Below, one piece after another: positions 27,536 through 48,779 of a stretch of DNA of 49,089 bases. Below the pieces are notes generated by a model, which did not search any database, was not told the DNA's origin, and saw only the letters and a list, made by a program, of their open reading frames with translations. The DNA comes from Acidiphilium sp. PA (GTDB lineage: Bacteria > Pseudomonadota > Alphaproteobacteria > Acetobacterales > Acetobacteraceae): assembly GCF_026191915.1 (NCBI RefSeq), contig NZ_JAIMBY010000022.1, positions 1 through 49,089 on the forward strand, in the 5' to 3' direction. The translations under genes and the position numbers were made by a program. The number at the start of each line of letters is the position of its first letter. Position 1 is the first letter of the stretch.

Positions 27536-27642
27536 GGTCGGGCTGCGGCAGCCGCGGGCCTCTTGGGGCCTGCGGATGACGCGGCCCTGCCACTTCTAAG
27601 GATGCGTTTTGGGGAGGAGAGGGCAGACAGCCCTCTCCTCCC
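27536..27642 (-). promoter_or_regulatory. Leader inverted repeat L1 (for DUF4326 gene)
   Basis: Arms 27536-27560 and 27567-27591 form a 25-position stem with 19 Watson-Crick and 3 G-T pairs around a TCTTGG loop. A second perfect 13-bp stem lies at 27612-27624 and 27630-27642. Without the IS the stem would start about 101 bases before the DUF4326 start. The apical 25 bases (27553-27577) are repeated exactly in leader L2. Proposed as a single-stranded-DNA promoter or structured leader RNA. Confidence 0.55.
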
Positions 27643-27782
27643 TCTTACTTCCTTCTGGACGATCCTGCGGCACGGTGATTGGGGGTGGTTGTGAGGGATC
27701 CACACTGTTTCCCCAGGTGGTGGCCTCACCGCAGATGCACTCATCTGCTGCGGGCGGTGGGGGCATTTTGCTGTGGAACGGC

Positions 27783-27813
27783 AAAAGGGCCGAACCCTTT
27801 TGGGGTCCGGCCC
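27783..27813 (-). terminator. Intrinsic terminator after the 59-residue gene
   Basis: On the - strand, GGGCCGGACCCC and GGGTTCGGCCC form a strong stem around AAAA, followed directly by TTTT. It starts 7 bases after the stop of the gene at 27820-27999. Confidence 0.8.
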
Positions 27814-27819
27814 TGTCGG

Positions 27820-27999
27820 TCAGTAGGGGATCTGATCCTCCGGTACGTCTCCGGGCATGCTGGGGCGGCTCCAGACCACGACCGTCTCGGGTCCGTGGGC
27901 GGTGCGGCGTGTCTCGATATACTCGATCTCGAAGCCACCTGAGGCCATGCGGCGGCCATCGTGGCGGGTCAGGCGGTCAGTCGTGCGGAGGTATGTCAT
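27820..27999 (-). CDS. Small plasmid protein, unknown
   Basis: A 59-residue soluble protein starting MTYLRTTDRLTRHDGRR with a C-terminal VVVWSRPSMPGD. ATG 27999 has AAAGGGATC upstream. It is framed by leader L2 on one side and a strong terminator on the other, so it is a single-gene transcription unit, which supports it being real. No family recognised. Confidence 0.65.
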   Translation of the reverse strand: MTYLRTTDRLTRHDGRRMASGGFEIEYIETRRTAHGPETVVVWSRPSMPGDVPEDQIPY

Positions 28000-28049
28000 C
28001 TGGATGATCCCTTTCTGCATCAGCGGAATTGCTGGTGATCAGCGGGAAA

Positions 28050-28231
28050 GCCGGCCTTCGTGGTGGCTCAACCCTGAAGCTACGCGAGCGCGCGAGGTCG
28101 GGTTGCGGAAGACGCGGGCCTCTTGGGGCCTGCGGATACCGCAACCTGGCCTCGCGATAGCTGGCGTGGCTGAACCGCGCTCTTGCGCGGCGCCCGAAGG
28201 GCGGGGTTGAACCAGCACGACCTTGGCCGGC
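28050..28231 (-). promoter_or_regulatory. Leader inverted repeat L2
   Basis: Outer arms 28050-28074 and 28204-28231 (GCCGGCC, CGTG, TCAACCC matched) enclose an inner stem 28091-28108/28139-28156 with 16 of 18 pairs. Its apical hairpin (28113-28137) is identical over 25 bases to the one in L1. The structure ends 51 bases before the start of the 59-residue gene. Confidence 0.6.
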
Positions 28232-28399
28232 TTTAGAATAGGAAGACCAGCAGAAGTGTCAGGCAAGATCGGACGAACAACCGGCGGTGATCGGGCGCAT
28301 CTGATGGCGAGGGTGATGACGAAACTGGCCCCGCGTTTCCTTCCGGTCGCCCGTGTGTCAGGTGGGACCAAAACCGGTCAACGACATTCTGACACATGG

Positions 28400-28429
28400 A
28401 AAAGGGCGGAGACCTTGCGGTCTCCGCCC
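28400..28429 (-). terminator. Intrinsic terminator after the 197-residue gene
   Basis: GGGCGGAGACC and GGTCTCCGCCC are perfect 11-bp arms around a 4-base loop. On the - strand the hairpin is followed by TTTT. It lies 16 bases beyond the stop of the gene at 28445-29038. Confidence 0.85.
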
Positions 28430-28444
28430 CTGGGTCTGGCCGGG

Positions 28445-29038: not shown

Positions 29039-29163
29039 CTGACTGATCTCTCTACAAAGCCGGGGGATCGCAGGCACCTTGCCTGCTCTACCGCCGCGGT
29101 GCCGATCTGAAGGCCGGGCATAGAGACCGGAGGCATACCCCTGAGGGCCGGCTGGCGCGGGCA

Positions 29164-29268
29164 GCGACGCGTTCTATACGCGTCGCAACACGGGCCGGCC
29201 CGAACCGCAGGCGCTTCGCCCGTCCTGACAGGCGCGCACCAGGCGCGCCTGTCAGGACGGGCGAAGCG
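29164..29268 (-). promoter_or_regulatory. Leader inverted repeat L3 with a perfect 26-bp stem
   Basis: Arms 29212-29237 and 29243-29268 are perfectly complementary over 26 bases around a 5-base loop (ACCAG). A smaller perfect 9-bp stem, GCGACGCGT-tctat-ACGCGTCGC, sits at 29164-29186. Together they lie 126 bases before the start of the 197-residue gene. Confidence 0.65.
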
Positions 29269-29339
29269 GGGGTTGCCGCTGGTCTCGCCCGGCCTAGATC
29301 GGGCACCTCGCGCGGCGGGAAGCAGGCAATTGTCAGCGG

Positions 29340-30036
29340 TCCCGTGCGATGTACGGAGAGATCGGCGATGGCGGGGCAGAGACCCCGAACGTCTCCCGCA
29401 ACCCGCACATTCCGCACCTTGATCAGCCTCACCAATGGCGGCCGCTGATCGGATCCCACGCCCGGCTGGGACTTCTGCACCACCGCTGCCCGGATCCCGA
29501 CTGAAGATATCCACGACGGTAACGGGCGAGCGGACGCGACGGGCTGACGGGGGATGAGACCGTCTCGCATGATGCGGCTGGCATCCGCCGATGCAATCCG
29601 AACGCTGCTCCGGCTCGCTGGCGCGGACCACCGGCAGAGCGGAGGTCATCCAGCATCCGTGAGACGCCGAACCGTAGTCACACCGCGACTGGTCGGGGAC
29701 GGTCTCGGATCGACGGAGACGCGGGGCCGTGATCGAGCGGCTGGCTGACCTTGCCATGCCCTGAAGATCGCAGCGGAGCCAAGGCTTCGAACCGCACTGG
29801 CCGGATATGGGACCCGCATCCCGGGTGCTTGTCACCTCATGTTCGCGTGGCTGGTGACCGTCGGAGATGGTCCGGCTTCAAGCGTAGGCCGCAACTGAGG
29901 CGTGATCCACTTCGCTCGACCAAGGAACATGAGCAAAAAATAACATTCATTGTGGTCATCACACCCTGACGCCACTGCCGCCCGTCAGCGCCAACTGGGC
30001 TCATGAGAAAATTTTGATGACACCGCTGCCGACATC
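29340..30036. other. Gene-poor spacer, nothing recognised
   Basis: Several short open frames exist on both strands, but none has a good start, recognisable motif or family. The segment turns A/T-rich near 29930-30020, just before the cargo island border. It may hold decayed sequence. Confidence 0.4.
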
Positions 30037-30093
30037 ATGAGTCTAAGCCGAGAAACCCCACTGGTCGCCATCACAATCCCGCTCACAATGATC

Positions 30094-30153
30094 GTCCTGG
30101 ACGACGATGCCGACCGGTCGACCGATCTTATCATCGCTGGCCCGGTTTGCCTG
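30094..30153 (-). pseudogene. Fragment of an AAA-type ATPase gene, left island border
   Basis: These 60 bases match 37715-37774 at 52 positions without gaps and in the same orientation. Read on the - strand both encode nearly the same peptide (QANR-SDD--RP-GI-VQDD), and most differences are silent, so both were once coding paralogues. The match stops sharply at 30153, where the molybdopterin oxidoreductase fragment begins. Confidence 0.6.
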
Positions 30154-30154
30154 C

Positions 30155-30348
30155 AACAGCAGACCTTACACGCCCTCGATTTCCTCGGTGTGCCCCTCAC
30201 CGCCTCCTTCGGTGCACCGCTCCGCCTGCGCATCCCAACCAAGCTCGGCTACAAGAACGCAAAATCGATCGTCGCAATGGGCGTGACCAATCAGTTCCCC
30301 AGCGGTTACTGGCAAAAACAGGGCTAAAACTGGTTCGGCGGGTCGTGA
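30155..30348 (+). pseudogene. C-terminal fragment of a molybdopterin oxidoreductase
   Basis: About 60 residues match the end of sulfite-oxidase-like molybdopterin enzymes (LDFLGVPLTASFGAPLRLRIP, KLGYKNAKSIV, GYW). An in-frame TAA (30325-30327) stands where the family has Tyr in a GYNWF motif; after it the frame continues NWFGGS to TGA 30348. The upstream catalytic part is missing. It is a relic captured at the island border. Confidence 0.6.
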
Positions 30349-30468
30349 GTCCGAATATTCTGCGCATCGGCATCCAGCCTGTTGCGATGATGAATGACCG
30401 TTCTGCTAACATCCGACCGATGTCCTAACCGGCCGCGACCAACATGATCAAACCCCGATCGCCACTCC

Positions 30469-30496
30469 TTGACGGTTGTGGTTCGACCGGTATGCT
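30469..30496 (+). promoter_or_regulatory. Promoter giving a probably leaderless amidohydrolase mRNA
   Basis: TTGACG (30469-30474) and TATGCT (30491-30496) are 16 bases apart. The GTG start of the amidohydrolase at 30503 is 7 bases after the -10 box, close to the expected transcription start. No ribosome site precedes it. Confidence 0.45.
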
Positions 30497-30502
30497 GATT
30501 GC

Positions 30503-31381
30503 GTGAGCCACGATGCCGCGCCAACCTGCCCGGGGCCAAACCCTCAACCACGAGGCCCCCGTGCCTACTCGATACCATCCGGCGCCGTCGATACCCACGC
30601 CCATGTCATCGGCGCGGAGCCGCGATACGCGCTAGTCGAGGCCCGCAGCTACACCCCGCCACCGGCATCGGCCGAAGCCTACCTCGCCATGCTGGATGCC
30701 ACGGGCATGACGTTCGGCGTACTCGTGCAGGTGAGTGTGCACGGCACCGACAATACCTTGCTGCTGGAAACCCTCGCCGCCCATCGGCACCGGCTACGCG
30801 GAATCGCCGTCGCACCGCCCGACCTGCCAGCCGCGGCCTGGCGGGTCATGGCAGAGTCTGGGATCACCGGGCTGCGCATCAATACGCTGTTCGGCGGCGG
30901 AATCGGCTTCAAGCATCTCGACCGCTACGCGGCGATCTGCGCCGATCACGGCTGGCACCTTCAATTCCTGACCGACGTCCGCCATCTCGGCGGGCATGAA
31001 GATCGAATCGCCCGGCTCCGGGTTCCCTGCGTGATCGATCACATGGGCCACTTCCCAGTCGATGACGATGCGGATGGAACTGGGTTGGCGACCATGCTTC
31101 GCCTGCTCGACGCGGGCGGGTGGGTAAAATTATCGGGCGCCTACCGGCTGCAAGCCGAACCGCCCTACGAAGGCACGATACGTCTCGCACGGGCGCTGGT
31201 CGCAGCCGCGCCGGATCGATGCGTCTGGGGCTCGGATTGGCCGCATGTCGCGCAGTGGGGCAAGATGCCGAATGTCGGCGATCTGCTCGATCTGCTGGCG
31301 GAATGGGTACCGGATGCAGCGCTTCGCGACCGCATCCTGACCGCCAACGCCCACCGGCTTTACGGTTTTACCTCCCCATAG
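30503..31381 (+). CDS. Amidohydrolase (2-pyrone-4,6-dicarboxylate hydrolase-like)
   Basis: A 292-residue TIM-barrel metal-dependent hydrolase of the amidohydrolase_2/PDC hydrolase type. It has DTHAHV (His32, His34) at the N-terminus, CVIDHMGHFP in the middle and WGSDWPH near the C-terminus, which supply the metal and substrate ligands. Related enzymes open lactones or lactams of dicarboxylic ring compounds. Its last 22 bases overlap the converging hydantoinase gene. GTG 30503 is chosen from the promoter position; no ATG fits. Confidence 0.8.
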   Translation: MSHDAAPTCPGPNPQPRGPRAYSIPSGAVDTHAHVIGAEPRYALVEARSYTPPPASAEAYLAMLDATGMTFGVLVQVSVHGTDNTLLLETLAAHRHRLRGIAVAPPDLPAAAWRVMAESGITGLRINTLFGGGIGFKHLDRYAAICADHGWHLQFLTDVRHLGGHEDRIARLRVPCVIDHMGHFPVDDDADGTGLATMLRLLDAGGWVKLSGAYRLQAEPPYEGTIRLARALVAAAPDRCVWGSDWPHVAQWGKMPNVGDLLDLLAEWVPDAALRDRILTANAHRLYGFTSP

Positions 31382-34300
31382 CCGCCGCCGCCGGGCGTTT
31401 CGATAACAATAGCATCGCCCGTCCTCAGCTTGGCCTGGTCGCAGCCGCCAATCGGCTCGACACTGCCGTCCGCACGTTCCACCCATTGCCGGCCGGTTGC
31501 ACCATCGCCCCCACCCTCAATTCCGAACGGCGCCACGCTGCGGCGCGATGCCAGCACGGTCACAATCATCGGTTCGAGGAAACGCAGCCGCCGGATCGCG
31601 CCATCGCCACCACGATAATGCCCGGCACCACCCGAACCGCGCCGGATCGCGAACATCTCGACACGCGCCGGATAGCGCAATTCCAGCACCTCGGGGTCGG
31701 TCATCCGGGTGTTGGTCATGTGGGTCTGCACCGCATCGCAGCCGTCGAAACCCGGCCCGGCACCGGCACCGCCGCAGATGGTCTCATAATACTGGTACCG
31801 CTGATTACCAAACAGCAGGTTGTTCATGGTCGCCTGCGCCGAGGCACAGACCCCGAGCGCGCCGAGCAAGGCCGCCGTCACCGCCTGACTGACCTCGGTA
31901 TTACCGGCGACCACGGCAGCACCTGGGTGCGGATTGAGGAAACTGCCCGGCGGGATGACAAGGGTCAGCGGGCGCAGGCAGCCTTCGTTGAGCGGAATAT
32001 CGTCGTTCACCAGGCAGCGAAACACATAGAGCACGGCGGCGCGCGTCACGGCCGGCGGCGCATTAAAATTGCCCCGGTGCTGGCCCGATGTGCCGGTAAA
32101 GTCGATCACCGCCGTCTTCGCCGCCTGATCGACGGTAATCCGCACCGCGAGCGAAGTGCCGTCATCCATCCGGTAATCGTATGCGCCGTCGCGCAGTGTG
32201 CCGATCGCGCGCCGCACCGAGGCTTCGGCGTTATCCATCACATGACCAGTATAAGCCGCGACCGTGGCAAAGCCGTATTGCGCCACCGCCGCCTCGAACG
32301 CGGCGATCCCGGCAGCGTTTGCCGCAAGCTGGGCCTTAAGATCGGCCACGCATTCATCGGGGTTGCGCGCCGGGTAGCGCGCACCGCCCAGCACTGCCCG
32401 GATATCATCCTCGCGAAACTCTCCCGCCGTCACCAGCAAAAAATCATCGATCACCACGCCTTCCTCTTCAAGTTTGGTCGCGAACGGCGGCATCGAGCCA
32501 GGGGTGAGGCCGCCGACATCTGCATGATGACCCCGTGAAGCGACGAAACCGCGCAGAGTGGTCCCGGCCAGATCGAACATCGGCGTGATCACGGTAATAT
32601 CGGGCAGATGGGTGCCACCGTTGTAGGGGTTGTTCAGCGCCACCGCATCGCCTTGCCGCAGCGTCGCCCCGCGCCGCGCCAGCACGATCCGCACGCTTTC
32701 GCTCATCGCGCCCAGATGCACCGGCACATGCGGCGCGTTCGCGATCAGACCGCCGGTGGGATCGAACAGCGCACACGAAAAATCCAACCGCTCCTTGATG
32801 TTCACGCTACTCGCGGTGTTGCGCAGCACCGCACCGCTCTGCTCGGCGATCGCCATGAACAGATTGTTGAACAATTCGAGCCGCACCGGGTCGACCCGGG
32901 TTGCAGCCTCACCCGTCCCCACCTCACCCAGCTCCGCGGATCGGCCGGCGTGATGCGTCATCACCAGATGATTGCGCAGCGTGATCGTGCCGGACCATCC
33001 CGGCTCGATGATGGTGGTGGCATTGGCCTCGCGTAGCATCGCAGGCCCCATGATCACGTCCCCGGCGCACAAGGCGTCGCGATCGAACACCGGCGCGTCC
33101 TGCCAGGTGTCTGCCGCGTAGAACCGTAGCCGATCCAGCGGCACTGGCGCGCCGGCTTCACGCGGCGCCAGTACGGGCTCAATGATCGTCTCACCGGGTG
33201 CCATCGCCTCGACTACGATCGATTCCGCGATCAGCTGGCGATCGGTCATGACGAAGCCGAACAGCCGCCGATGCGCGGCCTCGAATGCCTCTCGCATGCT
33301 TGCCGCATCCGCCAGATCGACGGTAATCGGCGTGTCGGTGCCGGCATAGCGCAGATGCGCGCGGCGTCTTGTCATGATGCTGTCGGGTACCGCGCCCTGT
33401 GCCGCTAGTGCTGCAACGCAAGCCGCACCGAGTTGATCGGCTACCGCCTCCAGCGCCGCGATCGCCGCCGGATCGACCTCGCATTCCACCGCCTGCTCGC
33501 GCAGCACGATCTGATCGGCCAGACCCATGCCATAGGCCGAGAGCACACCGGCCAGAGGATGGATCAGGATGGTGCGCATCCCCAGCGCCTCGGCGACCAG
33601 GCAGGCGTGCTGCCCACCCGCGCCGCCGAAACAGGCCAGGGCAAAATCCGCCGGGTCGCGACCTTTCTGAATCGTGATCTGCCGGATCGCCTGCGCCATC
33701 CGCGCCACCGCGATCGCGATATATCCGGCGGCGACGCGTTCGGGCGTCTGGTCGGTAGAGGTTGCCAAAGCAATCTCGCGCGCGCGCTCAGCGAAACGCT
33801 CGCGCACGATCGCGGCATCGAGCGTCTGGTCGTGATCGGGGCCGAAAATCGCCGGAAACTGCGCCGGTGCCAGCTTACCGAGCAGCACATTGGCGTCCGT
33901 CACGGTCAGCGGCCCACCACGCCGGTAGCAGGCAGGCCCAGGATCGGCGCCCGCGCTGTCCGGCCCTACCCGTAGGCGTGCGCCGTCGAAACCCAGCACC
34001 GAGCCCCCACCCGCCGCCACCGTGTTGATCGCCAGCATCGGCACCCGCAACCGCACACCGGCGATTTCGGTCTCCAGGGTGCGCTCGTAACCCCGATCAT
34101 AGATCGACACATCAGTCGAAGTGCCACCCATGTCGAAACCGATAATCCGGTCGAACCCGGCCATCGTAGCGGTGCGCGCGGCCCCCACAATCCCGCCCGC
34201 CGGTCCAGACAGGATCGCATCCTTGCCGGTGAACTGGTCCGCCGCGGTCAACCCGCCAAGGGATTGCATGAAATACAGCGGCGCGTTCGGCATACCAGCG

Positions 34301-35004
34301 GCAACATGATCGATATAGCGGCGCAGGATCGGCGACAGATACGCATCCGCCACCGTGGTATCTCCGCGCGAGACCAGCCGCAGCACCGGGCTGGTCGCAT
34401 GGCTGGTGGAAATCTGGGTGAACCCTTCCGCGACCGCCAGTGCCGCAAGGCGCTCCTCATGGGCCGGATAGCGCCAGGCATGCATCCGCGCGATCGCGAC
34501 GCTCTCGATCCCGGTGAGGCGCGCGGTTCGCAACGCCTCTTGCGCCGTCTGTTCATCGAGTGTCTCGACGATGGTTCCATCCGCACCGATCCGCCCGCCG
34601 ATTTCAACGACCCGTTCGTAGAGCATGCTGGGCAATCTGATATCGAAGGTGAATAGATTTGGCCGAGCCTGCGTGCCGATCCGCAGCAGATCACCCAGAC
34701 CACGATCGATCAGCAGCAGCACCCGCGCCCCCTTGCGCTCCAGCAGCGCATTGGTCGCAACCGTGGTCCCCATCTTCACCGCCTCGATCGCGCCATCCGG
34801 TATCGGCTCACCCGCACCGAGCCTCAGGCAGGCGCGAATCCCCGCGATCGCGGCATCGGCATAGCGAGATGGATCGTCCGAAAGCAGTTTCAGCGTCCGC
34901 CGTGACCCATCCGGCGCTGTCGCGACAATATCGGTGAAGGTGCCCCCACGATCGATCCAGAACCGCCAGCCCGCGTCTCGTCGTTCGGGAGCCGTTGCCG
35001 TCAT
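31360..35004 (-). CDS. Fused hydantoinase A/B (5-oxoprolinase family)
   Basis: A 1214-residue protein joining the HyuA-like ATPase half (about 1-690: [23 protein letters not shown]-like [34 protein letters not shown]) to the HyuB-like half (about 700-1214: [28 protein letters not shown] end). This is the layout of ATP-dependent 5-oxoprolinases, which open cyclic amides such as 5-oxoproline or hydantoins. Both halves appear complete. It is transcribed divergently from a MarR-like regulator. Confidence 0.87.
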
Positions 35005-35066
35005 GGTTGAACCTCATTCCTTGAAACGCACCATCGAGGCACTCAGCCTGCCACAGCGAAATTTGA

Positions 35067-35096
35067 TTGACAATCTATCGGTAATTTGTCGATATA
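35067..35096 (+). promoter_or_regulatory. Promoter and palindromic operator of the regulator
   Basis: TTGACA (35067-35072) and GATATA (35091-35096) are 18 bases apart in the divergent gap between the hydantoinase and the regulator. TATCG-gtaatttgt-CGATA (35076-35094) overlaps the spacer and -10 box and is a candidate binding site for the MarR-like protein. Confidence 0.5.
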
Positions 35097-35125
35097 AAGT
35101 TTCATTGCGGCACGGGGTACGTGAC

Positions 35126-35701
35126 ATGAAAGCGAAAATCGATCCCAGTAGCGGCGCCATGCTACCCGACAAAGCCGTCCGGAAAGACGGCCGTCGGGCG
35201 AGCGCCCCGGTCGTGTCCTCCGCCCACCTCGCCGCCGGGCGATCCCCCGCATTGTCGGAAGTGGAATTCGGTCTCAACCTCGCGGCGATGGCCTATCAAC
35301 GCTGGATGGTCCGCTGCATGGCCGCCGCGGGTATGCCCGGTCTGTCACCGCTTGAAGTTCTGGTGCTGCACACAGTCCGTCATCGCGACCGACCCAAGCG
35401 CTTCGCGGACATCATGCTCGTCCTCGACATCGAGGAAATCCATCTGATCACCTACGTCATCCGCAAACTAACAAGCGCCGGCCTCGTGACCGTGACACGC
35501 GCTGGCAAGGACAGGCTGATCAGCACCAGCCCATCCGGCGTCGCGCTGTGTGCGCGCTATCACGAAATCCGCGAGGATCTGCTGGTCTCCGCCATCGGAG
35601 CCGTCGGGCCGGGCGATGCGATGCTCAGCGAAATGGCCGCATTACTGCGCGGACTTTCAGGAACCTACAATCAGGCGGCCCGCGCCGCGACAACACTGTA
35701 A
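35126..35701 (+). CDS. MarR-like winged-helix regulator
   Basis: A 191-residue protein whose residues about 75-165 form a winged-helix pattern of MarR type (LSPLEVLVLHTVRHR, FADIMLVLDIEEIHLITYVIRKLTSAGLV, then the wing TRAGKDRLISTSPSG). The N-terminal 45 residues are basic and probably disordered. It lies between the divergent hydantoinase and the co-directional transporter, so it likely controls both. An in-frame ATG at 35161 is an alternative start. Confidence 0.72.
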   Translation: MKAKIDPSSGAMLPDKAVRKDGRRASAPVVSSAHLAAGRSPALSEVEFGLNLAAMAYQRWMVRCMAAAGMPGLSPLEVLVLHTVRHRDRPKRFADIMLVLDIEEIHLITYVIRKLTSAGLVTVTRAGKDRLISTSPSGVALCARYHEIREDLLVSAIGAVGPGDAMLSEMAALLRGLSGTYNQAARAATTL

Positions 35702-35733
35702 TCCGCCCTCAGACCCGATACGGAAGGACCACC

Positions 35734-37011
35734 ATGGCCGATAACGGAATAACGATCGAGACCGCGTCTCCTATCGCCGAGAGCGGCAGCCTCGCGGCCT
35801 TATTCCGGGCGATGAATCCCACTGAGTGGCGCACCTTCCGGGCCTGCGCCGGCGGCTGGGGGCTCGATGGCATGGATTTCATGCTCTACCCGCTGATCAT
35901 CGGCACCATCATGCACCAATGGGCGGTCGCCCCCGGCCCCGCGGGTTTCGCCGCAACCCTGACCCTGCTGGCCTCCGCGATCGGCGGATGGCTCGCCGGC
36001 TACGTCTCCGACCGGATCGGCCGCGTGCGGGTGCTGCAGATCACCATTCTGTGGTTTTCCCTCTTCAGCCTGTTATCGGCCTTCGTGCAGAATTTCGACC
36101 AGTTGATCATCTGCCGCGCCCTGCTCGGCTTCGGGTTCGGCGGTGAATGGGCGGCGGGAGCCATCCTGATGGGCGAGACGATCCGTCCGCAATTCCGCGG
36201 CCGCGCGGTGGGGTCCGTGCAGTCGGCCTGGGCGGTTGGCTGGGGGATCGCGGTGCTGGCGCAGGCGATCATCTTTTCGATCCTTCCGCCCGCCATCGCC
36301 TGGCGCGCGATGTTCGCGGTGGGCGCCCTCCCGGCCCTTCTGGTACTCTATCTGCGCCGCAACGTCGCCGAACCCGCCATCTCCGTTGCCGCGCGCCGAA
36401 CCGGCACGCCCGGCATTCTCACGATTTTCGGGCGTGAGACGATCATGATCACCCTGCTCGGCAGCCTACTCTCGACCGGCGCGCAGGGCGGTTATTACGC
36501 GATCACCTTCTGGCTGCCGACCTTCCTGAAAGTCGATCGTCACCTCAGTGTCGTCGGCAGCACCGGCTACCTCGCGATCCTGATCGCCGGTAGTTTCATC
36601 GGCTACCTGGCCGGCGCGTGGCTATCGGACCGTCTGGGTCGGCGCAAGGTATTCCTGATTTTCTCGGCGGGCGCGATCGTCACCATCCTCGCCTACACCC
36701 AGCTCACGATTTTGAACGACGCGATGCTGGTGCTCGGCTTTCCGCTGGGATTTTTCGCAAGCGGCTATTTCTCGGCGATGGGCCCGTTTCTTACTGAATT
36801 GTTCCCCACGCGTCTGCGCGGCTCGGGACAGGGCTTCACGTATAATTTCGGTCGCGGCCTCGGCGCCCTGTTTCCCGCTTTGATCGGCTACCTCACCCAG
36901 TCGATCGGCTACGGTAACGCGATCGCGATTTTCGCCGTCGCCGCCTACGCGCTGTTCTTCCTCGCCGCCTTCGCTTTGCCCGAAACGCGGGGCCGCGTGC
37001 TGACGGCGTGA
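35734..37011 (+). CDS. MFS transporter (aromatic/organic acid symporter type)
   Basis: A 425-residue protein with about 12 membrane helices and the MFS loop signature GYVSDRIGRVRVL between helices 2 and 3, repeated as AGAWLSDRLGRRKVF in the second half. The start GLDGMDFMLYPLI resembles aromatic and sialic acid symporters. GGAAGGA precedes ATG 35734. It is probably the uptake system for the substrate of the neighbouring hydantoinase and amidohydrolase. Confidence 0.87.
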   Translation: MADNGITIETASPIAESGSLAALFRAMNPTEWRTFRACAGGWGLDGMDFMLYPLIIGTIMHQWAVAPGPAGFAATLTLLASAIGGWLAGYVSDRIGRVRVLQITILWFSLFSLLSAFVQNFDQLIICRALLGFGFGGEWAAGAILMGETIRPQFRGRAVGSVQSAWAVGWGIAVLAQAIIFSILPPAIAWRAMFAVGALPALLVLYLRRNVAEPAISVAARRTGTPGILTIFGRETIMITLLGSLLSTGAQGGYYAITFWLPTFLKVDRHLSVVGSTGYLAILIAGSFIGYLAGAWLSDRLGRRKVFLIFSAGAIVTILAYTQLTILNDAMLVLGFPLGFFASGYFSAMGPFLTELFPTRLRGSGQGFTYNFGRGLGALFPALIGYLTQSIGYGNAIAIFAVAAYALFFLAAFALPETRGRVLTA

Positions 37012-37096
37012 CCCTAATGGCTCGCCTTCCCCGCTGACCCAGGCGTCAGCTTCCTCACGATGATCGGATCGTCGCCGGCTAGGAGCTTGTCGGACT

Positions 37097-37895: not shown

Positions 37896-37905
37896 CATCA
37901 TCTCC

Positions 37906-38516: not shown

Positions 38517-38569
38517 CGTTGTGTTCCTTTCGATGTTATCTTCTGTTTGAAGACCCCATCGAACGGCCG

Positions 38570-38697
38570 CCGGCCGGAGAGGCAGGCAAGGGCGCGGTCT
38601 CGCCCCACTTGGGGGGCCAGCCGCGGGAACTGAGCCACGCGCAGCCTGCCCCTTGGCAGGCAAGCATGGCGAAACCCTTGCCGGCCCGGCCGGCCGG
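38570..38697 (-). promoter_or_regulatory. Leader inverted repeat L4
   Basis: Arms 38570-38592 and 38675-38697 pair through CCGGCCGG and GGCAAGGG blocks separated by an unpaired 7-base segment on each side. An inner perfect hairpin GCCTGCC-cctt-GGCAGGC lies at 38644-38661. The structure starts 54 bases before the 72-residue gene. Confidence 0.6.
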
Positions 38698-38719
38698 TGG
38701 CAGTGATGATGTTGTTTCC

Positions 38720-39564: not shown

Positions 39565-39636
39565 TTTCTGATCCTTGATCATGGGGTTATCTTTTTCCTG
39601 AAGACAACCATCGCGCGGCCGCGGCCTGACCGGCCG

Positions 39637-39695
39637 GGCAAGGGCGCGCGCCTCTATCGGCGCGCGGGCCGCCCTATGCGGCCTACACCCTTGCC
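39637..39695 (-). promoter_or_regulatory. Leader inverted repeat L5
   Basis: GGCAAGGG (39637-39644) pairs with CCCTTGCC (39688-39695), the same base sequence as in L4. Inside are two perfect hairpins, CGCGCGCC-tctatc-GGCGCGCG (39645-39666) and GGCCGC-cctat-GCGGCC (39667-39683), giving a clover-like shape 73 bases before the gene. Confidence 0.6.
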
Positions 39696-39857
39696 GGGAC
39701 GTGCAGGGCCGTGGCAGGCGGGCAGGGACTCTGATTGACCGGCCGGGGTCAGGTGAATGAATCGGCCCGATTGCCTGTCAATATTCACTGTCCGCCTAAG
39801 CGGCGGTGTATCGGTGGTCTGCTATATGACGTGGTTCGTTTACGATGAGGTGTTTCA

Positions 39858-40915: not shown

Positions 40916-41929
40916 TCATCCCACGCTTGCTCTCGTCAGGGCTTCGTTCCAGTCCTTTGCCGCGTCGGGTGGCCGCAACCTTTCGATGGTCACGGCGATC
41001 GATGCGATCGTCGCCTCGATCCGTGCGGCATGGCGATCCCCGGCCGCATCGGCATCGGTAGCGATGACCAGAGTGCCGCCGGCGGATCCGAGCTCCCCGA
41101 CCAGCTGACGCAGCGCCGCGACGGTGCCCGGCCCCAACCCGCCGGTGGTGGCAACATAGATCGTGTCCGTCCGGCTTGGCTCAAGGGCGGCGAGGCTCAA
41201 GGCGTCGATAGGTGCTTCGGTCACCGCGACCCGCCGGGGATATCCGGTCGTGTCGCCGGGCGCGAACCGGAACAGGCTCTTCTGTCCGCCGCGGAGAACG
41301 CCCCGGTAACCCGGGCCGCGCGCCTCGATGCCGGTCAATCTGCCCTCGTGGTCCCGATGGGCGAACCAGGCGCAGCCGAACCCGCCGGCACGGATGCAAT
41401 CCTGTGCCGCGGCAGCGGCGAGGATGGTGGCGGGCAGATGCCGTTCCCGAGCGAGATAGCCCCAGGCTTTCGTAGAGGGGCGCAGCGCAGGCTTCGCCTG
41501 CCAGCGGACCAAGGGACAGACCGTCTCGATCCGATCCGACATTGAGCCGGCAACAGCGACCGGTCCTGACGGGGCAATGCCGGCGATCGCGCGGAGCGTC
41601 TGGCGGACATGGCCGAAGTTGCGATCGGGGTGGAGGAACTGGATCAGGCTGAAGCAATCGCCTTTCTCGTCGCCGAGCGGGTTCCACCAGCCCTTGTCGT
41701 CATGGGTGACGATCAGGATCTCGCCGGAGCCGCGGCGGTATTTCACCGCGCGCCGGGAACTTTCAGCCGGATCGACGTGCCATCCTTCGCGTTCGAGGAT
41801 GAGGGCGCAGGAGACGGTCCGCCGCAGCAGATCGACCTCGCTGGCGTTGTTGTCACGGTCGCCCCGCCGGGTGCCGGATCGCTGGCCGGGCAGGGGCGGG
41901 TATCCGGTGGTGTCGGTGGATGAGATCAT
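40916..41929 (-). CDS. DUF3991/Toprim-domain protein
   Basis: A 337-residue protein with an N-terminal region like DUF3991 (about 35-125, GWWNPLGDEKGDCFSLIQFL) and a C-terminal Toprim-like domain: VAVTEAPIDALSLAALE (catalytic Glu) and LVIATDADAAGDRHA (DxD). Proteins of this type are common on conjugative plasmids and are thought to act on DNA during transfer or replication, like plasmid primases. AGGAG precedes ATG 41929. Only gene of the L6 unit. Confidence 0.82.
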   Translation of the reverse strand: MISSTDTTGYPPLPGQRSGTRRGDRDNNASEVDLLRRTVSCALILEREGWHVDPAESSRRAVKYRRGSGEILIVTHDDKGWWNPLGDEKGDCFSLIQFLHPDRNFGHVRQTLRAIAGIAPSGPVAVAGSMSDRIETVCPLVRWQAKPALRPSTKAWGYLARERHLPATILAAAAAQDCIRAGGFGCAWFAHRDHEGRLTGIEARGPGYRGVLRGGQKSLFRFAPGDTTGYPRRVAVTEAPIDALSLAALEPSRTDTIYVATTGGLGPGTVAALRQLVGELGSAGGTLVIATDADAAGDRHAARIEATIASIAVTIERLRPPDAAKDWNEALTRASVG

Positions 41930-42014
41930 GGCGAAGCTCCTGGTCTGGGTTCATCGTCGGAAGGCGGTCGCGCCTTTCGACGGACGCCACGCTGCGAGAT
42001 GCGGGAGGGGTGGG

Positions 42015-42105
42015 TGAAGCGCAGTCGGGCGGGGCCGGCCTGCGAGCGCGCGGGCCTGTGGGCCAGCGCGGTGAGCGACGCTGCCCCGCTGTAGGCTGCG
42101 CTTCA
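42015..42105 (-). promoter_or_regulatory. Leader inverted repeat L6
   Basis: TGAAGCGCAG (42015-42024) pairs perfectly with CTGCGCTTCA (42096-42105), and GCGGGGC (42029-42035) with GCCCCGC (42083-42089). It lies 86 bases before the Toprim gene. The rest of the 412-base gap, toward the ProQ/FinO-like gene, shows no gene. Confidence 0.6.
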
Positions 42106-42342
42106 GGGAGGGGAGGGCGGCGCTCTCCACTCCTTCAGGCGCGCGTCGGCGCGAGCAGGGAGACCGGGTCATCGGAGATTGGCGGTTGTCGAAATCGATG
42201 GGCGTTGTGGGGGTGATCGCCCGAAGACCGGTGAGGGCCACGGGAGGAAGCGCTCTTGCGGCTGATCGTGTGGTGTGCAGAAATCGGAACACTGCCGGTT
42301 CCGACGCGTAGGACCGGACCCGTTTGATGAGGTGAGGTGACG

Positions 42343-43152: not shown

Positions 43153-44025
43153 TCATGGGCCGATGGTGTTCATCGGGTCGGCGTGGGTGGGGTAGGGGCC
43201 GCCGTTGCACAGCGAGGCGGCGAGGGATACCCGGCTGGAATGTGAGCCGAGGGTGAAGGCGTAGACGTGGTTGCCAGGATGCTGCACCGCCCGGAACGGC
43301 CCCTCGCGCAGGGCGCGACTGACGTAGGCCGCATCTGGTTCGCCGCTGGCGCGATGCGGCGCACCGTGGCGCCGTAGCTGCTCGTAGGTGTAGGCGGCAC
43401 CGTTACCGCCGGTCCGCAGCTTGGACAGGGCGCGATCGGAGAGGCCGGTGCCGTCCGGCGTGAGCCAGATCCGTCGCCGTGTCGCGCGGCCGAGGTAGAG
43501 AGCGGATTTCTCGCGGTAGATGCCGCCGAAATGACCGTTGAACCGGATATTGCCGTGCGCATCGGTACGTGGCACCGGATCGGAATACGCCAACACGAGC
43601 GGGTATTTCGGGCGGCGGTGCACGTCCTGATGTTCGGCCGCGAACAGGCTCAGGGCGCGGCGGAGCGTCCAGGTCTCGGCGTTGCCGCCGACGCGGTCGG
43701 CGAGCAGGAACCGGCCGAGGTCGCAGAAGGGGGTCTTCCCGGCACCATAGGCTGCGGCGGCCTTGGCCTGGACGGGGATCGAGAAGACCACGACGCCGAC
43801 CAGCAATTGTTGCTGCCAGCCGGTACGTTCGAAAAGCCCGTAGCAGGCGAGGGCGACCGGGAACGTGCCGGAGTAGTGGTGAGCCAGGACGAAGTCCTTG
43901 GCGACCCTTGTGTGGGGTATTGGGGCGACCTCGTAGCAGTGCGGGTCGAACGGCTCGCGCTGCGGTCGCCAGGTTGTGCTGCGGTGTGACCACCGCTGGG
44001 CGACGGTCCGCAGGTCGATGACCAT
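43153..44025 (-). CDS. Mom-like DNA-modification protein (putative)
   Basis: A 290-residue protein with a GNAT-like layout found in proteins annotated as Mom-family adenine methylcarbamoylation enzymes: FVLAHHYSGTFPVALACYGLF, LLVGVVVFSIP, CDLGRFLLADRVGGNAETW, LAYSDPVPRTDAHGN, FGGIYREKSALYLGRA and QHPGNHVYAF. Phage Mu Mom modifies adenines and blocks host restriction; a plasmid copy would be an anti-restriction factor. ATG 44025 is chosen because GGAGAATTG precedes it. It follows ssb1 with an intrinsic terminator in between. The assignment is from remembered motif pattern, not an alignment. Confidence 0.6.
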   Translation of the reverse strand: MVIDLRTVAQRWSHRSTTWRPQREPFDPHCYEVAPIPHTRVAKDFVLAHHYSGTFPVALACYGLFERTGWQQQLLVGVVVFSIPVQAKAAAAYGAGKTPFCDLGRFLLADRVGGNAETWTLRRALSLFAAEHQDVHRRPKYPLVLAYSDPVPRTDAHGNIRFNGHFGGIYREKSALYLGRATRRRIWLTPDGTGLSDRALSKLRTGGNGAAYTYEQLRRHGAPHRASGEPDAAYVSRALREGPFRAVQHPGNHVYAFTLGSHSSRVSLAASLCNGGPYPTHADPMNTIGP

Positions 44026-44044
44026 GACAATTCTCCAATGAAAC

Positions 44045-44069
44045 GACGCCCCGGTGCGACCGGGGCGTC
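44045..44069 (-). terminator. Hairpin between ssb1 and the Mom-like gene
   Basis: GACGCCCCGGT and ACCGGGGCGTC are perfect 11-bp arms around GCG. On the - strand the hairpin is followed by GTTTCATT. It lies 12 bases after the ssb1 stop and 20 bases before the Mom-like start, so it may lower expression of the Mom-like gene relative to ssb1. Confidence 0.65.
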
Positions 44070-44080
44070 TGGTCTGAATT

Positions 44081-44569
44081 TCAGTCGACGCAGGGCGCGA
44101 AGGGGATTTCGTCGTCGAGATCGGCACCTGCGCCGGGTGTGAAGCCACCCGTTTCCCCGGCGGTCTCGCGCTGACGGGGGGTTGCGGCGCGCTCTCCGTC
44201 CTCCCGGCGAGCACCGTTAGGTGAGCCAAGCAGGATCAGCTGACTGTCGTAGCCGCTCAGGACGATTTCGGTCGTGTAGCGTTCGTTCTCGTTCTGATCG
44301 ACCCATTTCCGGGTTCGCAGCGTGCCTTCCACCAGGACCTTGTCACCCTTCGCGCAGTATTTCTCGATCACCCCGATCAGGCCCTCGTTCCACACCACGA
44401 TCCGGTGCCATTCGGTGCGTTCCTGCCGCTCGCCGCTGTGCTTGTCGGTCCAGCTTTCGCTGGTCGCCAGCGACATCGAGGCGACCTTTCCGCCCGACTG
44501 CGTGATGCGGATTTCGGGATCTTGACCGAGGTTTCCGATCAGGGTGACGCGATTCATTGATCCGGCCAT
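44081..44569 (-). CDS. ssb: Single-stranded DNA-binding protein, copy 1
   Basis: A 162-residue SSB with the OB fold (MNRVTLIGNLGQDPEI, WTDKHSGERQERTEWHRIV, GDKVLVEGTLRTRKW). It coats incoming plasmid ssDNA in recipients. It is nearly identical to copy 2 over the first 120 residues. The usual acidic tip DDEIPF is followed by five extra residues (APCVD), so the tip is no longer terminal and its contact with host repair proteins may be lost. Start ATG 44569 has CAGGAG upstream. First gene of the L7 unit. Confidence 0.93.
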   Translation of the reverse strand: MAGSMNRVTLIGNLGQDPEIRITQSGGKVASMSLATSESWTDKHSGERQERTEWHRIVVWNEGLIGVIEKYCAKGDKVLVEGTLRTRKWVDQNENERYTTEIVLSGYDSQLILLGSPNGARREDGERAATPRQRETAGETGGFTPGAGADLDDEIPFAPCVD

Positions 44570-44617
44570 ATCCAGTCTCCTGTTTTCATTTCATCACTCA
44601 GGAGGCGGCTGGCCCTT

Positions 44618-44784
44618 GCCAGCGACGTCCCTCGTGTGCGGTCCAGGAGAACCGGGCCGGGCGGCCGGTCAGGGCAGAGGGCGCCCTATCGCGCCCGAAC
44701 CGCTTGCGGCGCGAGCGCAGCGAAGCGGCCTTGACCGGCTGGCCGGCCCCGGTTCAGACCGCAGAACACGAGGGCGCGGCTGGC
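44618..44784 (-). promoter_or_regulatory. Leader inverted repeat L7 (ssb1)
   Basis: A long compound hairpin. CCCTCGTGT (44629-44637) pairs with ACACGAGGG (44766-44774), GCGGTC with GACCGC (44757-44762), AACCGGGCCGG with CCGGCCCCGGTT, GGCCGGTCA (44663-44671) with TGACCGGCT (44732-44740), and an apical CCGCTT/AAGCGG (44700-44728). A 3-base bulge (AGA) interrupts the outer stem. It ends 49 bases before ssb1. Confidence 0.68.
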
Positions 44785-44835
44785 GAGGACAATTGACGAC
44801 ACCGCCGCAGGCTCATCTGGTCATGGTTTGTTCCA

Positions 44836-45596: not shown

Positions 45597-45608
45597 GGCG
45601 GGATCCTT

Positions 45609-46727: not shown

Positions 46728-46753
46728 GTGGGAGGTGGATGTGGGAGGTGGAT
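46728..46753. repeat. Tandem 13-bp repeat
   Basis: GTGGGAGGTGGAT occurs twice in a row (46728-46740 and 46741-46753) in the 100-base gap between two genes of the L8 unit. Probably replication slippage. Confidence 0.85.
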
Positions 46754-46785
46754 GTGATCAGCCCCGGAAGGGGCGGATCATCGGA

Positions 46786-47145
46786 TCAGTGAAATTTGAG
46801 AAGCAGGCCGATGATGCCGAGGCCAAGCGTTCCGAAGCCCAGGATGCTGCCGACAGTCCATCGGAGGTTGGAATTCAATCCTGTTTGCAATTCGGTCCGA
46901 ACGGATTGAACCTCGACGCGAAGGTCGGCGATGGCCTTGTCTGTCGCATAGAATTTGGTGGCAATGGCTTTATCGGACGCATCGAACTTGGCGAGCACGG
47001 TATTCGTGAGATCACGAACCATAGCCTTGACCTCGCGGATCTCGTATTTCAGTTCCGCGGTCGAGTGCTCGAGGATGGCAACCCGGGTTTCCATCTCATG
47101 AGGGTAGTCTGGGGGGCTTTGTTTTTCAACAGGTGAATCAGGCAT
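46786..47145 (-). CDS. Coiled-coil protein with C-terminal membrane helix
   Basis: A 119-residue protein with a coiled coil at about residues 17-85 (METRVAILEHSTAELKYEI, FDASDKAIATKFYATDKAIADL) and one membrane helix at the C-terminus (about 97-116, SILGFGTLGLGIIGLLLKF). The layout resembles XhlA/DUF1640-type membrane-associated proteins. ATG 47145 has GGAGAG 3 bases upstream. Its role on the plasmid is unknown. Confidence 0.72.
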   Translation of the reverse strand: MPDSPVEKQSPPDYPHEMETRVAILEHSTAELKYEIREVKAMVRDLTNTVLAKFDASDKAIATKFYATDKAIADLRVEVQSVRTELQTGLNSNLRWTVGSILGFGTLGLGIIGLLLKFH

Positions 47146-47185
47146 GGTCTCTCCTATCACATTGGAGGGTGCGGATGAAGGCGCT

Positions 47186-47401
47186 TCAGATATCAAGAGA
47201 CATCTGAAGCGCGGATGGAACGGCCACCATGCCGCCGCTGCCGAACTCATAACGGCAGCGTTCGGCGAGGCTTTCGAGCGCCTGGTCGGTCAGGGCATGC
47301 AGTCCAAGTTCGGCGAGGATGTCGCAGGCGACATTGAACCCTTCACCCTTGTTGCGGGCACAGATCGCCTCGATATCGTCGATCAGCTGGTGGCGGGGCA
47401 T
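47186..47401 (-). CDS. Small plasmid protein, unknown
   Basis: A 71-residue soluble protein (MPRHQLIDDIEAICARNKGEG), helical. ATG 47401 overlaps the upstream stop and has GGAGGAG upstream. Part of the L8 unit. No family recognised. Confidence 0.68.
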   Translation of the reverse strand: MPRHQLIDDIEAICARNKGEGFNVACDILAELGLHALTDQALESLAERCRYEFGSGGMVAVPSALQMSLDI

Positions 47402-47700
47402 CACTCGGGCTCCTCCATTTTCATGTATGTTTCCTGTCCCAATTCGTGCTTGTTCTGTGCCGCATCATAGCCGTTGGGCTTGCGGCAGCCTTTGGCGATC
47501 GAGACCGAGATATAGAACGACTCATCGGGGTGGGCTTGGTGAACCGCTTTTCCGAAATCGGCCACCGCGCTCTTTATGTCGTTGACCGTGCTGACAACCT
47601 CGATCGTCCTGCGATCGAGGGATTTTCCCATCAGCGCGAGGGTCATGCCGAATGGGGTCTTACGGCCGGGGATGGTCGAGAGGGTGATGGTGCAGGGCAT
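47401..47700 (-). CDS. Small plasmid protein (MP-TITLS family), unknown
   Basis: A 99-residue protein starting MPCTITLSTIPGRK, a style shared with the N-terminal part of the chimeric ORF at 17.3 kb. The body alternates strands and helices (FYISVSIAKGCRKPNGYD). It overlaps the next gene by 1-4 bases. Part of the L8 unit. A perfect GGCCGGGC-atc-GCCCGGCC hairpin lies just upstream in the gap. Confidence 0.7.
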   Translation of the reverse strand: MPCTITLSTIPGRKTPFGMTLALMGKSLDRRTIEVVSTVNDIKSAVADFGKAVHQAHPDESFYISVSIAKGCRKPNGYDAAQNKHELGQETYMKMEEPE

Positions 47701-47750
47701 CGGTTAGTTCCTTTCAGGGGTGTGGCCGGGCATCGCCCGGCCGGGGAAAA

Positions 47751-48002
47751 TCAGTCGGCGTCGGCAGGAGAGCGCCGGGCTGTGGTGAAGCCGCAGGCGA
47801 ACGCGAAATCTGCGCTGCTCTCGATCAGGCGGGCACCGATCATGGCGGTGGTGCAGAACCGTCGCAGATCGCCGGCGGTGATTCGGTGTTCGCCCCACGA
47901 CATGATGACCTGATGGTCGGGGTAGCGGTTGACGTTCAGCAGATTGGCGAGATGCCGGATTTCGGCTTCGGTCACGAAACCTGGTGCGATGGCGTGAGCC
48001 AT
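47751..48002 (-). CDS. Small plasmid protein, unknown
   Basis: An 83-residue helical protein starting MAHAIAPGFVTEAEIRHLANLL. ATG 48002 has CAGGAG upstream. It follows ssb2 by about 100 bases, which contain a GATCGGC-gtgtg-GCCGATC hairpin without a T-run. Second gene of the L8 unit. No family recognised. Confidence 0.68.
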   Translation of the reverse strand: MAHAIAPGFVTEAEIRHLANLLNVNRYPDHQVIMSWGEHRITAGDLRRFCTTAMIGARLIESSADFAFACGFTTARRSPADAD

Positions 48003-48100
48003 GGTCGTCTCCTGTCGAGGTCGGAGGAAGAGAGGGGCACGCACGGGGGATCGGCGTGTGGCCGATCGCCCGCTCTGCATGGGTCAGTGGACGGATGAGC

Positions 48101-48574
48101 CTAAAACGGGATCTCATCGTCGAGATCAGCGCCCATACCCGGCTTGAAGCCGCCTGTGGCGCCGGCGGTCTCGCGCTGACGGGGGGTTGCGGCGCGCTCG
48201 CTGCCCTGTCGGCCAGCGCGGCTCGGCGAGCCGAGCAGGATCAGCTGACTGTCGTAGCAGCTCAGGACGATTTCGGTCGTGTAGCGTTCGTTCTCGTTCT
48301 GATCGACCCATTTCCGGGTTCGCAGCGTGCCTTCCACCAGCACCTTGTCACCCTTCGCGCAGTATTTCTCGATCACCCCGATCAGGCCCTCGTTCCACAC
48401 CACGATCCGGTGCCATTCGGTGCGTTCCTGCCGCTCGCCGCTGTGCTTGTCGGTCCAGCTTTCGCTCGTCGCCAGCGACATCGAGGCGACTTTCCCGCCC
48501 GACTGGGTGGTGCGGATTTCGGGGTCTTGACCGAGGTTTCCGATCAGGGTGACGCGATTCATTGATCCGGCCAT
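48101..48574 (-). CDS. ssb: Single-stranded DNA-binding protein, copy 2
   Basis: A 157-residue SSB, almost identical to copy 1 in the OB fold and differing mainly in the linker (about 125-145). Unlike copy 1 it ends exactly in the canonical acidic tip DDEIPF, so it can recruit host partners. Start and ribosome site match copy 1. It is the first gene of the long L8 unit, which continues with eight small genes down to 44836. Confidence 0.94.
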   Translation of the reverse strand: MAGSMNRVTLIGNLGQDPEIRTTQSGGKVASMSLATSESWTDKHSGERQERTEWHRIVVWNEGLIGVIEKYCAKGDKVLVEGTLRTRKWVDQNENERYTTEIVLSCYDSQLILLGSPSRAGRQGSERAATPRQRETAGATGGFKPGMGADLDDEIPF

Positions 48575-48633
48575 ATTCAGTCTCCTGTTTTCATTTCATC
48601 ACTCAGGGGGCGGCCGGCCCTTGCCAGCGACGT

Positions 48634-48779
48634 CCCTCGTGTGCGGTCCAGGAGAACCGGGCCGGGCAGCCGGTCAGGGCAGAGGGCGCGCTATCGCGCC
48701 CGAACCGCTTGCGGCGCGAGCGCAGCGAAGCGGCCTTGACCGGCTAACTGGCCCGGTTCAGACCGCACAAACACGAGGG
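48634..48779 (-). promoter_or_regulatory. Leader inverted repeat L8 (ssb2)
   Basis: A close copy of L7. CCCTCGTGT (48634-48642) pairs with ACACGAGGG (48771-48779), with the same internal stems. Some differences from L7 keep or improve pairing: AGCCGGTC now pairs fully with GACCGGCT, where L7 has a G-T pair. The bulge is 4 bases (ACAA) instead of 3. The duplication with L7 extends to about 48805. Confidence 0.68.

Follow-up and report, generated by a model that had tools for sequence, protein, structure and literature searches.

The closest described counterparts of the elements analysed here are the ssi elements of plasmid ColIb-P9, the Frpo elements of plasmid F and a set of Frpo-like candidates from other plasmids. 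ColIb-P9 possesses more than one ssi element, and Nasim and colleagues reportedly described in 2004 a leading-region single-strand promoter of this plasmid whose activity depends on secondary structure. The ssi elements are leading-region single-strand promoters, as the leaders examined below probably are. Like these leaders, Frpo1 and Frpo2 of F are described as long hairpins of the transferred strand that precede ssb and other leading-region genes, which are read toward oriT, with two copies per plasmid (PMC9849209). According to Samuel et al. (2024), anti-defence islands carry predicted ssDNA promoters before several units, an arrangement similar to that of the leaders, and these Frpo-like candidates were found by BLAST with five known sequences together with the E. 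coli -35/-10 consensus (PMC11541004).

The window, a 49,089-nucleotide stretch of Acidiphilium sp. PA, contains eight long inverted repeats (L1 to L8), each a leader of a transcription unit (Table 1). No account of these elements was found in the literature searched, which included passages of PMC11541004, PMC9849209, PMC12826799 and PMC7314908, with preprints and most subscription papers outside the search. A preliminary description had proposed that the repeats form one family of promoters active on single-stranded DNA.

Hairpin leaders of the window

Folding strength was scanned along the window in 200-nt tiles (978 tiles at a step of 50), with DNA parameters and 24 dinucleotide shuffles per tile; the z values have a mean of -0.5 and a standard deviation of 1.5. 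The 14 lowest z values (-14.2 to -5.3) all belong to tiles that overlap L1, L2, L3, L4, L5, L7 or L8. L6 is weaker, its best tile coming 22nd (z -4.5), and three non-leader tiles are about as low, with 25001 and 4701 ranked above that tile and 25051 just below. When the score is regressed on GC, the sole peaks below -3.5 are L1 to L5, L7 and L8, and L6 falls short of this cut-off. All eight leaders therefore fold better than shuffled controls, L6 less strongly than the others. The dot operon, said to lack such a repeat, indeed has no GC-regressed peak past the cut-off at 1.5-9.8 kb.

The gene order and the minus-strand orientation of the DUF4326, Toprim/DUF3991, Mom-like and two SSB genes also agree with the preliminary description. 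Because the Mom-family ORF as listed overlaps ssb1, its true start is probably lower. NCBIfam returned nothing for 10 leading-region proteins. A leader had been claimed before each unit; all eight are present, but L1 is cut off from DUF4326 by an IS256-family ORF, whose matched region is 99.0-99.3% identical to four Acidiphilium records. On the contigs C8 and C24 and in the genome G005, L1-type hairpins lie 75, 38 and 38 nt from DUF4326, respectively.

Table 1. Positions of the hairpin leaders and of associated genes in the window
Feature	Position	Strand	Remarks
L1 hairpin	27513..27645	+	R2 family; leader of DUF4326 unit, parted from it by IS256 copy
L1 second hairpin	3' side of L1		13 bp, G-rich
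L2 multi-stem hairpin	28047..28234	+	core in R2 family; leader of 59-aa unit
L3 hairpin	29079..29329	+	perfect 26-bp apical stem; leader of 197-aa unit
L4 hairpin	38557..38711	+	leader of 72-aa + 130-aa unit
L5 hairpin	39614..39720	+	related to L4; leader of 147-aa unit
L6 hairpin	42010..42137	+	R2 family; leader of Toprim unit, start 80 nt away
L7 hairpin	44612..44793	+	R1 family; leader of ssb1, start 42 nt away
L8 hairpin	48617..48798	+	R1 family; leader of ssb2, start 42 nt away
DUF4326 ORF	25416..26141	-	Pfam PF14216
Toprim/DUF3991 gene	40916..41929	-	
ssb1	44081..44569	-	Pfam PF00436
358-aa ORF, Mom-family match	43153..44229	-	Pfam PF25680; downstream of ssb1
ssb2	48101..48574	-	
TrwC-type relaxase/helicase	19240..22449	-	
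Gap, relaxase side to DUF4326	24707..25415		read as non-coding; inferred oriT region
IS256-family transposase ORF	26199-27407		between L1 and DUF4326
DotM, T4SS_TraI, coupling protein	1.5-9.8 kb	+	

Sequence families and conserved pairing

Rather than one diversified family, the leaders comprise four sequence groups, namely {L1, L2, L6}, {L7, L8}, {L4, L5} and L3. Two covariance-model families are distinguished below: R1, modelled on L7/L8, and R2, modelled on L1/L6 and including the L2 core. The L1/L6 model recovers L2 and has matches in at least 20 of 299 genomes of the family. In such family-wide searches the best 8-11 candidates per genome were scored under stricter filters, so genome counts are lower bounds. 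Within the genome of the window, where the best 150 candidates were scored for each model, every match to either model at E 0.001 falls on one of four contigs (C8, C15, C18 and C24). This result supports the preliminary description; matches on some chromosome-size contigs in the wider searches count in part against it. L3 is found in close relatives only.

For {L1, L2, L6} and {L7, L8}, stem pairing is kept by compensatory change across genera. In the R2 alignment of 31 distinct rows, which was fitted to the model, 30 of 41 pairs show double changes. It has 228 double-changed cells, compared with 66 after shuffling, and none of 500 shuffles reaches 228; pairing is 94.6% in register as opposed to 45-49% when slid. 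An unfitted MAFFT alignment of eight L1/L6 rows already has double changes at 15 of 44 pairs. The corresponding figures are 36 of 62 pairs and 98 cells against 23 shuffled for R1 (20 rows, model-fitted), and 24 of 70 pairs and 53 cells against 18 shuffled for L2 (10 rows, MAFFT). For L4/L5, RNAalifold gives a poor consensus owing to apices that fail to align with each other, and realignment is little better (double changes at 7 of 29 pairs; 19 double-changed cells, compared with 6.7 shuffled; five G-T and five A-C pairs). Because the alignment is poor, no covariance claim is made for L4/L5.

These patterns bear on whether the repeats act in duplex DNA, as cruciforms or as operators of a plasmid regulator. 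Inverted repeats frequently serve as operators; operators, however, are not expected to be multi-branched, strand-biased and variable in sequence with pairing kept, and a duplex-level role is very improbable.

The strand that folds

Because G-T pairs outnumber A-C pairs in all three alignments that allow a judgement (R2, R1 and L2), it is apparently the plus strand that folds, rather than the sense mRNA. Counted as column pairs, the ratios in the three alignments are 25:6, 26:12 and 20:6, among pairs picked by a fold that disallows G-T; the R1 and R2 matches were themselves selected by models built on the plus strand. Taken by themselves, the leaders of the window show a non-significant excess (8:3, p 0.23), and a control based on F (7:5 and 2:1) is too small to inform. 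C-to-T change on an exposed strand could partly account for a G-T excess, although columns dominated by A-T hold 17 of 83 (R2), 10 of 47 (R1) and 20 of 46 (L2) of the G-T cells.

The strand preference also bears on two RNA-level explanations. If the leaders were structured long 5' untranslated regions of sense mRNAs transcribed from upstream duplex promoters, the strong folding of their sense RNA would be accounted for. Nonetheless, plus-strand G-T, which is A-C on the mRNA, exceeds the reverse in three alignments, and a search of Rfam returned no family at gathering score, only two chance-level matches (E 0.059 at the L3 apex, and 0.38); this role is therefore quite improbable. Small structured RNAs encoded on the plus strand would agree with the apparent folding strand, but the placement of one element per unit, directly before start codons on the opposite strand, and the same Rfam result make them extremely unlikely.

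Relaxase and the transferred strand

From the side and strand of the relaxase, the plus strand would be the transferred strand and oriT would lie near 25 kb, so placed that the leader-bearing part of the plasmid probably enters the recipient first. An R388-like nic core, searched with at most one mismatch, gave no match. Hairpin and TrwC relaxase lie on opposite strands in 13 of 13 contigs that have TrwC within 50 kb. A TrwC match is absent from 7 of 26 genomes with hairpin matches, and on the two chromosome-size contigs that carry both, the relaxase is far off, on one of them on the same strand.

Genes behind the hairpins

The leaders lie upstream of leading-region genes, ssb included, as Frpo and ssi elements do. 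Of 20 R1 matches on the T-strand, 18 precede ssb, one precedes Toprim and one neither; the gene that follows lies on the complementary strand, and the distance to ssb is mostly about 40 bases. All five ssb genes on C8, C15 and C18 have the hairpin; for the sixth ssb, which is on C67, no R1 match within its 3.3-kb loci improves on E 0.04. In relatives, the seven R2 matches tested with Pfam precede N6_N4_Mtase, DUF932, ParB_N (three), ArdcN and DUF2958 genes, and genes annotated beside the F oriT include those for SSB, a DUF932 protein, a ParB-family protein and a DNA methylase. Two hairpin families also replace one another: Toprim is preceded by an R2 element in the window, on C8 and in the genome G006, and by an R1 element in G005.

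This placement helps to separate gene promoters from ssi sites at which RNA polymerase, a primosome or a plasmid primase (e.g., the Toprim/DUF3991 protein) would prime the complementary strand. Priming sites would likewise have to form their fold in the strand that is transferred, the region includes a Toprim gene, and Frpo is said, in work of Masai and Arai from 1997, to be both promoter and primer site. Priming, however, requires neither a hairpin per unit near the start codon nor re-use before the same kinds of genes across genera, and priming sites that are not gene promoters are rather unlikely.

Promoter-like features

E. coli-type -35/-10 pairs do not exceed shuffles in any of the eight leaders, in a scan without power, since both F elements fail it as well. 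In R1, TTG lies 14-16 nt ahead of a conserved (T/C)TCA in 17 of 20 rows, five of them from distant relatives. The internal loop of R2 keeps an A in 30 of 31 rows and the following G in 31 of 31, and no conserved -35-like element is seen in R2 where the spacing would call for one. The idea that the TTGAC of L7/L8 serves generally as a -35 element fails for R2.

A model of early expression

Taken together, the leaders are probably cis-acting single-strand promoters of the transferred strand, one per leading-region unit, and most plausibly work like Frpo and ssi. The plus-strand fold, covariation, placement and TrwC strand favour this reading of the preliminary description, while the genomes without TrwC and the matches on chromosome-size contigs weigh partly against it. 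By computation, the case is best for {L1, L2, L6} and {L7, L8}, in fold, covariation, strand, placement, relaxase strand and kinds of genes. The plus strand as the transferred one, oriT, promoter activity itself, the polymerase, the start site and the same action of L3, L4 and L5 are what we infer.

In the proposed mechanism, the plus strand would enter the recipient 5' end first, and each leader would fold back on itself as a long hairpin, its arms pairing to recreate a short duplex promoter. RNA polymerase would bind this stem and read the 5' arm as its template, the 3' arm being the non-template strand, and melting would begin at the pre-opened internal loop. Transcription would leave via the hairpin foot toward oriT and into the gene, ahead of second-strand synthesis. 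The plasmid would therefore equip every leading-region unit (that of SSB, Toprim, DUF4326, the Mom-like protein and others) with an element of its own. The conserved folds in relatives suggest that these genes are switched on before the incoming DNA has become double-stranded.

Comparison with known systems

If this reading is correct, early expression from incoming ssDNA extends beyond the enterobacteria, and covariance modelling can detect elements of this kind that searches by sequence miss. The presence of eight elements in one plasmid, with pairing kept and sequence changing, would allow the requirements of the polymerase to be learned, and the 59-aa, 72-aa, 147-aa, 197-aa and DUF4326 proteins would be encoded by candidate early establishment or anti-defence genes. 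More tentatively, alphaproteobacterial conjugative plasmids may use a separate class of single-strand promoters that has no sequence relationship to Frpo. Its several covarying hairpin families would be interchangeable before the same genes and share an invariant unpaired element on the non-template side, and a polymerase or factor without need of E. coli-type boxes would read them, possibly together with a plasmid-encoded helper.

When the two F Frpo elements were searched against the window, no leader matched below E 0.2, and hence none at the published E 1e-6; this lack of similarity by BLAST sets the leaders apart from the candidates of Samuel et al. (2024). In contrast to the AT-rich rod end of F Frpo, the leaders are GC-rich with branched apices, and, unlike the F elements, they number eight and fall into several unrelated sequence families.

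Folding and families of the leaders

The long hairpin leaders L1-L8 fold beyond shuffled controls, as the preliminary description had anticipated. The 14 lowest folding z-scores among 978 window tiles all lie on leaders, and the sole window peaks of a GC-regressed folding score are seven of the eight. L6, the Toprim leader, stands out less, its best tile ranking only 22nd of 978, with tiles from outside the leaders (4.7 and 25 kb) ranked around it. Placement immediately before the first gene fails for L1 in the window, where an IS256 copy parts it from DUF4326; an L1-type hairpin stands 75, 38 and 38 nt ahead of DUF4326 on contigs C8 and C24 of the same genome and in genome G005, respectively.

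A single covariance model had been envisaged for all leaders, which do not form one family. Pairwise comparison yields the pairs L7/L8, L4/L5 and L1/L6, and ties L2 to the apex of L1. Models were built family by family, R2 from L1/L6 and R1 from L7/L8, the two ssb leaders; R2 also picks up L2, unseen in training.

Covariation was counted against shuffles that ignore the relatedness of rows, so its numbers are not probabilities: both-sided changes occur in 30 of 41 pairs across 31 distinct R2 rows (228 cells against 66 shuffled, 0 of 500 shuffles being as high). In this R2 alignment, which was fitted to the model and leans towards structure, 94.6% of cells are paired, compared with 45-49% when one side is slid. 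An unfitted MAFFT alignment of eight L1/L6 rows has double changes in 15 of 44 pairs. For R1, the fitted alignment of 20 rows has them in 36 of 62 pairs (98 cells against 23); these rows were kept from 39 matches, the 19 dropped being 13 weaker reverse readings of the same hairpins and six weak matches to other leaders or hairpins, none above 31 bits. Corresponding figures are 24 of 70 pairs (53 cells against 18) for ten MAFFT-aligned rows of the L2 family, and 7 of 29 (19 against 6.7) for a poor L4/L5 alignment.

Folding strand and hairpin anatomy

Where one strand can form a G-T pair, its complement has an A-C mismatch. Among column pairs taken from a G-T-free fold, G-T and A-C number 25 and 6 in R2, 26 and 12 in R1, and 20 and 6 in L2; the L4/L5 alignment is even (5 each). 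Counted in single sequences, isolated G-T mismatches outnumber A-C ones by 8 to 3 in the eight window leaders (p 0.23) and by 61 to 7 in 48 relatives, of which many are near-identical; the two F elements give 2 and 1, and 226 other tiles from the window show the opposite order, 21 to 33. Together, these counts speak for folding of the + strand, the presumed transferred strand, and not of the sense mRNA. C-to-T change in exposed single-stranded DNA may contribute to the G-T excess, but 17/83 G-T cells in R2, 10/47 in R1 and 20/46 in L2 are found in mostly A-T columns.

R2 consists of a 9-bp foot, a C-G pair (31/31) beside an asymmetric internal loop, a 13-bp stem and a free apex. The 3' side of the loop reads TGTA in 16/31, its final A being present in 30/31 and followed by G in 31/31. 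In R1, a long foot is followed by a 3'-arm bulge, a bubble that comes after conserved GGTTC or GGCTC, and a free apex. Of the 20 R1 rows, 17 carry a TTG 14-16 nt upstream of (T/C)TCA; 12 come from close and five from distant relatives, and in the latter five the stem between the two motifs has diverged. These conserved positions may serve as polymerase contacts: such a site would need fixed points roughly a promoter spacer from each other, with one already open.

Distribution

Genome counts are lower bounds, the family and class searches having scored 8-11 candidates per genome. R2 matches at least 20 of 299 family genomes and at least 14 of 102 genera, and R1 at least 8 and at least 5, respectively. 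In a draw of 385 class genomes, at least three match R2: the source genome and two from another family. Within the 4.5-Mb source genome, 150 scored candidates yielded five R1 and nine R2 hairpins, all on the window contig (C15) and C8, C18 and C24, which carry related sequence; each R1 hairpin also reads in reverse at far lower score. A DNA pattern from the R2 alignment gave 13 matches in 11 stretches of a species genome collection, in Falsiroseomonas, Acidomonas, two Gluconacetobacter, Brytella, Acidocella, an Acidiphilium MAG and two Methylobacterium. The searches overlap, the matches in Acidomonas, G. diazotrophicus and Brytella being the same places as R2-model matches in G073, G248 and G115. 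R2 hairpins also occur, perhaps in integrated elements, on large, apparently chromosomal contigs of G. diazotrophicus (locus L101, 3.9 Mb record) and G007 (locus L081, C6).

Genes served by the hairpins

Eighteen of the 20 R1 matches on the presumed transferred strand are followed by ssb on the complementary strand (13 by blastp and five by tblastn, one of these five also annotated ssb). Of the other two, one precedes Toprim in G005 and one, on a 3.6 Mb G011 contig, precedes neither. Hairpin and start are separated by 38-44 nt at loci with a clear start; two loci (L047, L049) have an uncertain start codon. In the source genome, all five ssb genes of C8, C15 and C18 have an R1 hairpin, and the surroundings of a sixth (C67) hold no R1 match better than E 0.04.

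Within the genus, R2 matches stand before DUF4326 and Toprim. The next gene could be named for only part of the R2 matches, several having no name; Pfam assignments in the seven relatives examined are N6_N4_Mtase (G073), DUF932 and ParB_N (Falsiroseomonas), ParB_N (G285, Acidocella), ArdcN (Methylobacterium nonmethylotrophicum) and DUF2958 (Acidiphilium MAG). Gluconacetobacter and Brytella have additional methylase-like proteins, identified by eye alone. The window, C8 and G006 have an R2-type leader before Toprim and G005 has an R1-type one, a leader exchange; therefore, either family can take the other's place before Toprim.

Plasmid layout and orientation

A TrwC match is present in 19 of the 26 genomes with hairpin matches and absent from seven. 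Fifteen contigs hold both, at most 50 kb apart on 13: G000 (source genome) C15, C8 and C24, G005 C19, G006 C37, G206 C72, G114 C161, G200 C38, G147 C20, G165 C64 and C68, G201 C857 and G283 C2. These 13 related, non-independent contigs all have hairpin and relaxase gene on opposite strands; on 12 of them the hairpin lies upstream of the relaxase gene. The exception, G206 C72, is probably circular because it has a 95-base terminal overlap. The two contigs left out are chromosome-size with the relaxase at least 0.8 Mb off (G248 C1, same strand; G011 C18, opposite strand).

The genes between L3 and L4 are probably an insertion, because the gap is about 2.5 kb on C8 and 9.2 kb in the window, and look like cargo in the leading region.

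Features of the window and of related loci
Feature	Location	Strand	Remark
dot/IncI-type transfer genes	window, left of 25 kb	+	
TrwC-type relaxase	window, left of 25 kb	-	
IncI/dot-type transfer genes with TrwC (MOBF) relaxase	window 1500-22449		to our knowledge, an unusual pairing
DUF4326, Toprim/DUF3991, two SSBs, Mom-like protein	window, right of 25 kb	-	
SRAP and ProQ-like genes	window, right of 25 kb	+	
Match to part of F Frpo1	window 25390-25426		37 nt, 84% identical, E 1e-4; DUF4326 end, outside leaders; probably chance
IS256-family copy	window 26079-27460		between L1 and DUF4326; 99.0-99.3% identical to copies in four Acidiphilium plasmid records
1214-aa ORF	window 29400-38000		between L3 and L4; matches hydantoinase B/oxoprolinase regions of Rhizobium plasmids
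Amidohydrolase-like and transporter-like ORFs	window 29400-38000		same interval; both named by eye
R1-type Toprim leader	L039 7680-7865 (G005 C19)		
Extra long hairpin	L039 10400-10650 (G005 C19)		apex L4/L5-like; no counterpart noted among L1-L8
Two adjoining very long near-perfect hairpins	L038 13760-14230 (G006 C37)		other kind; -207 kcal/mol over 471 nt

Comparison with known single-strand promoters

Samuel et al. obtained their candidates by BLAST searches with five known sequences, at a 1e-6 cut-off, and by E. coli boxes (PMC11541004), and a 2026 survey likewise relied on BLAST (PMC12826799). An RP4 study saw zygotic induction and found no such promoters (PMC7314908). Early expression in recipients is reported to require Frpo1 and Frpo2 of F (PMC9849209). 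The leaders show no sequence similarity to these two F elements, which is why they are not classed as Frpo. Like the genes served by the leaders, those annotated beside oriT in F include SSB, methylase, ParB-family and DUF932 genes. The leaders are best regarded as new, structure-conserved elements that probably work as Frpo does.
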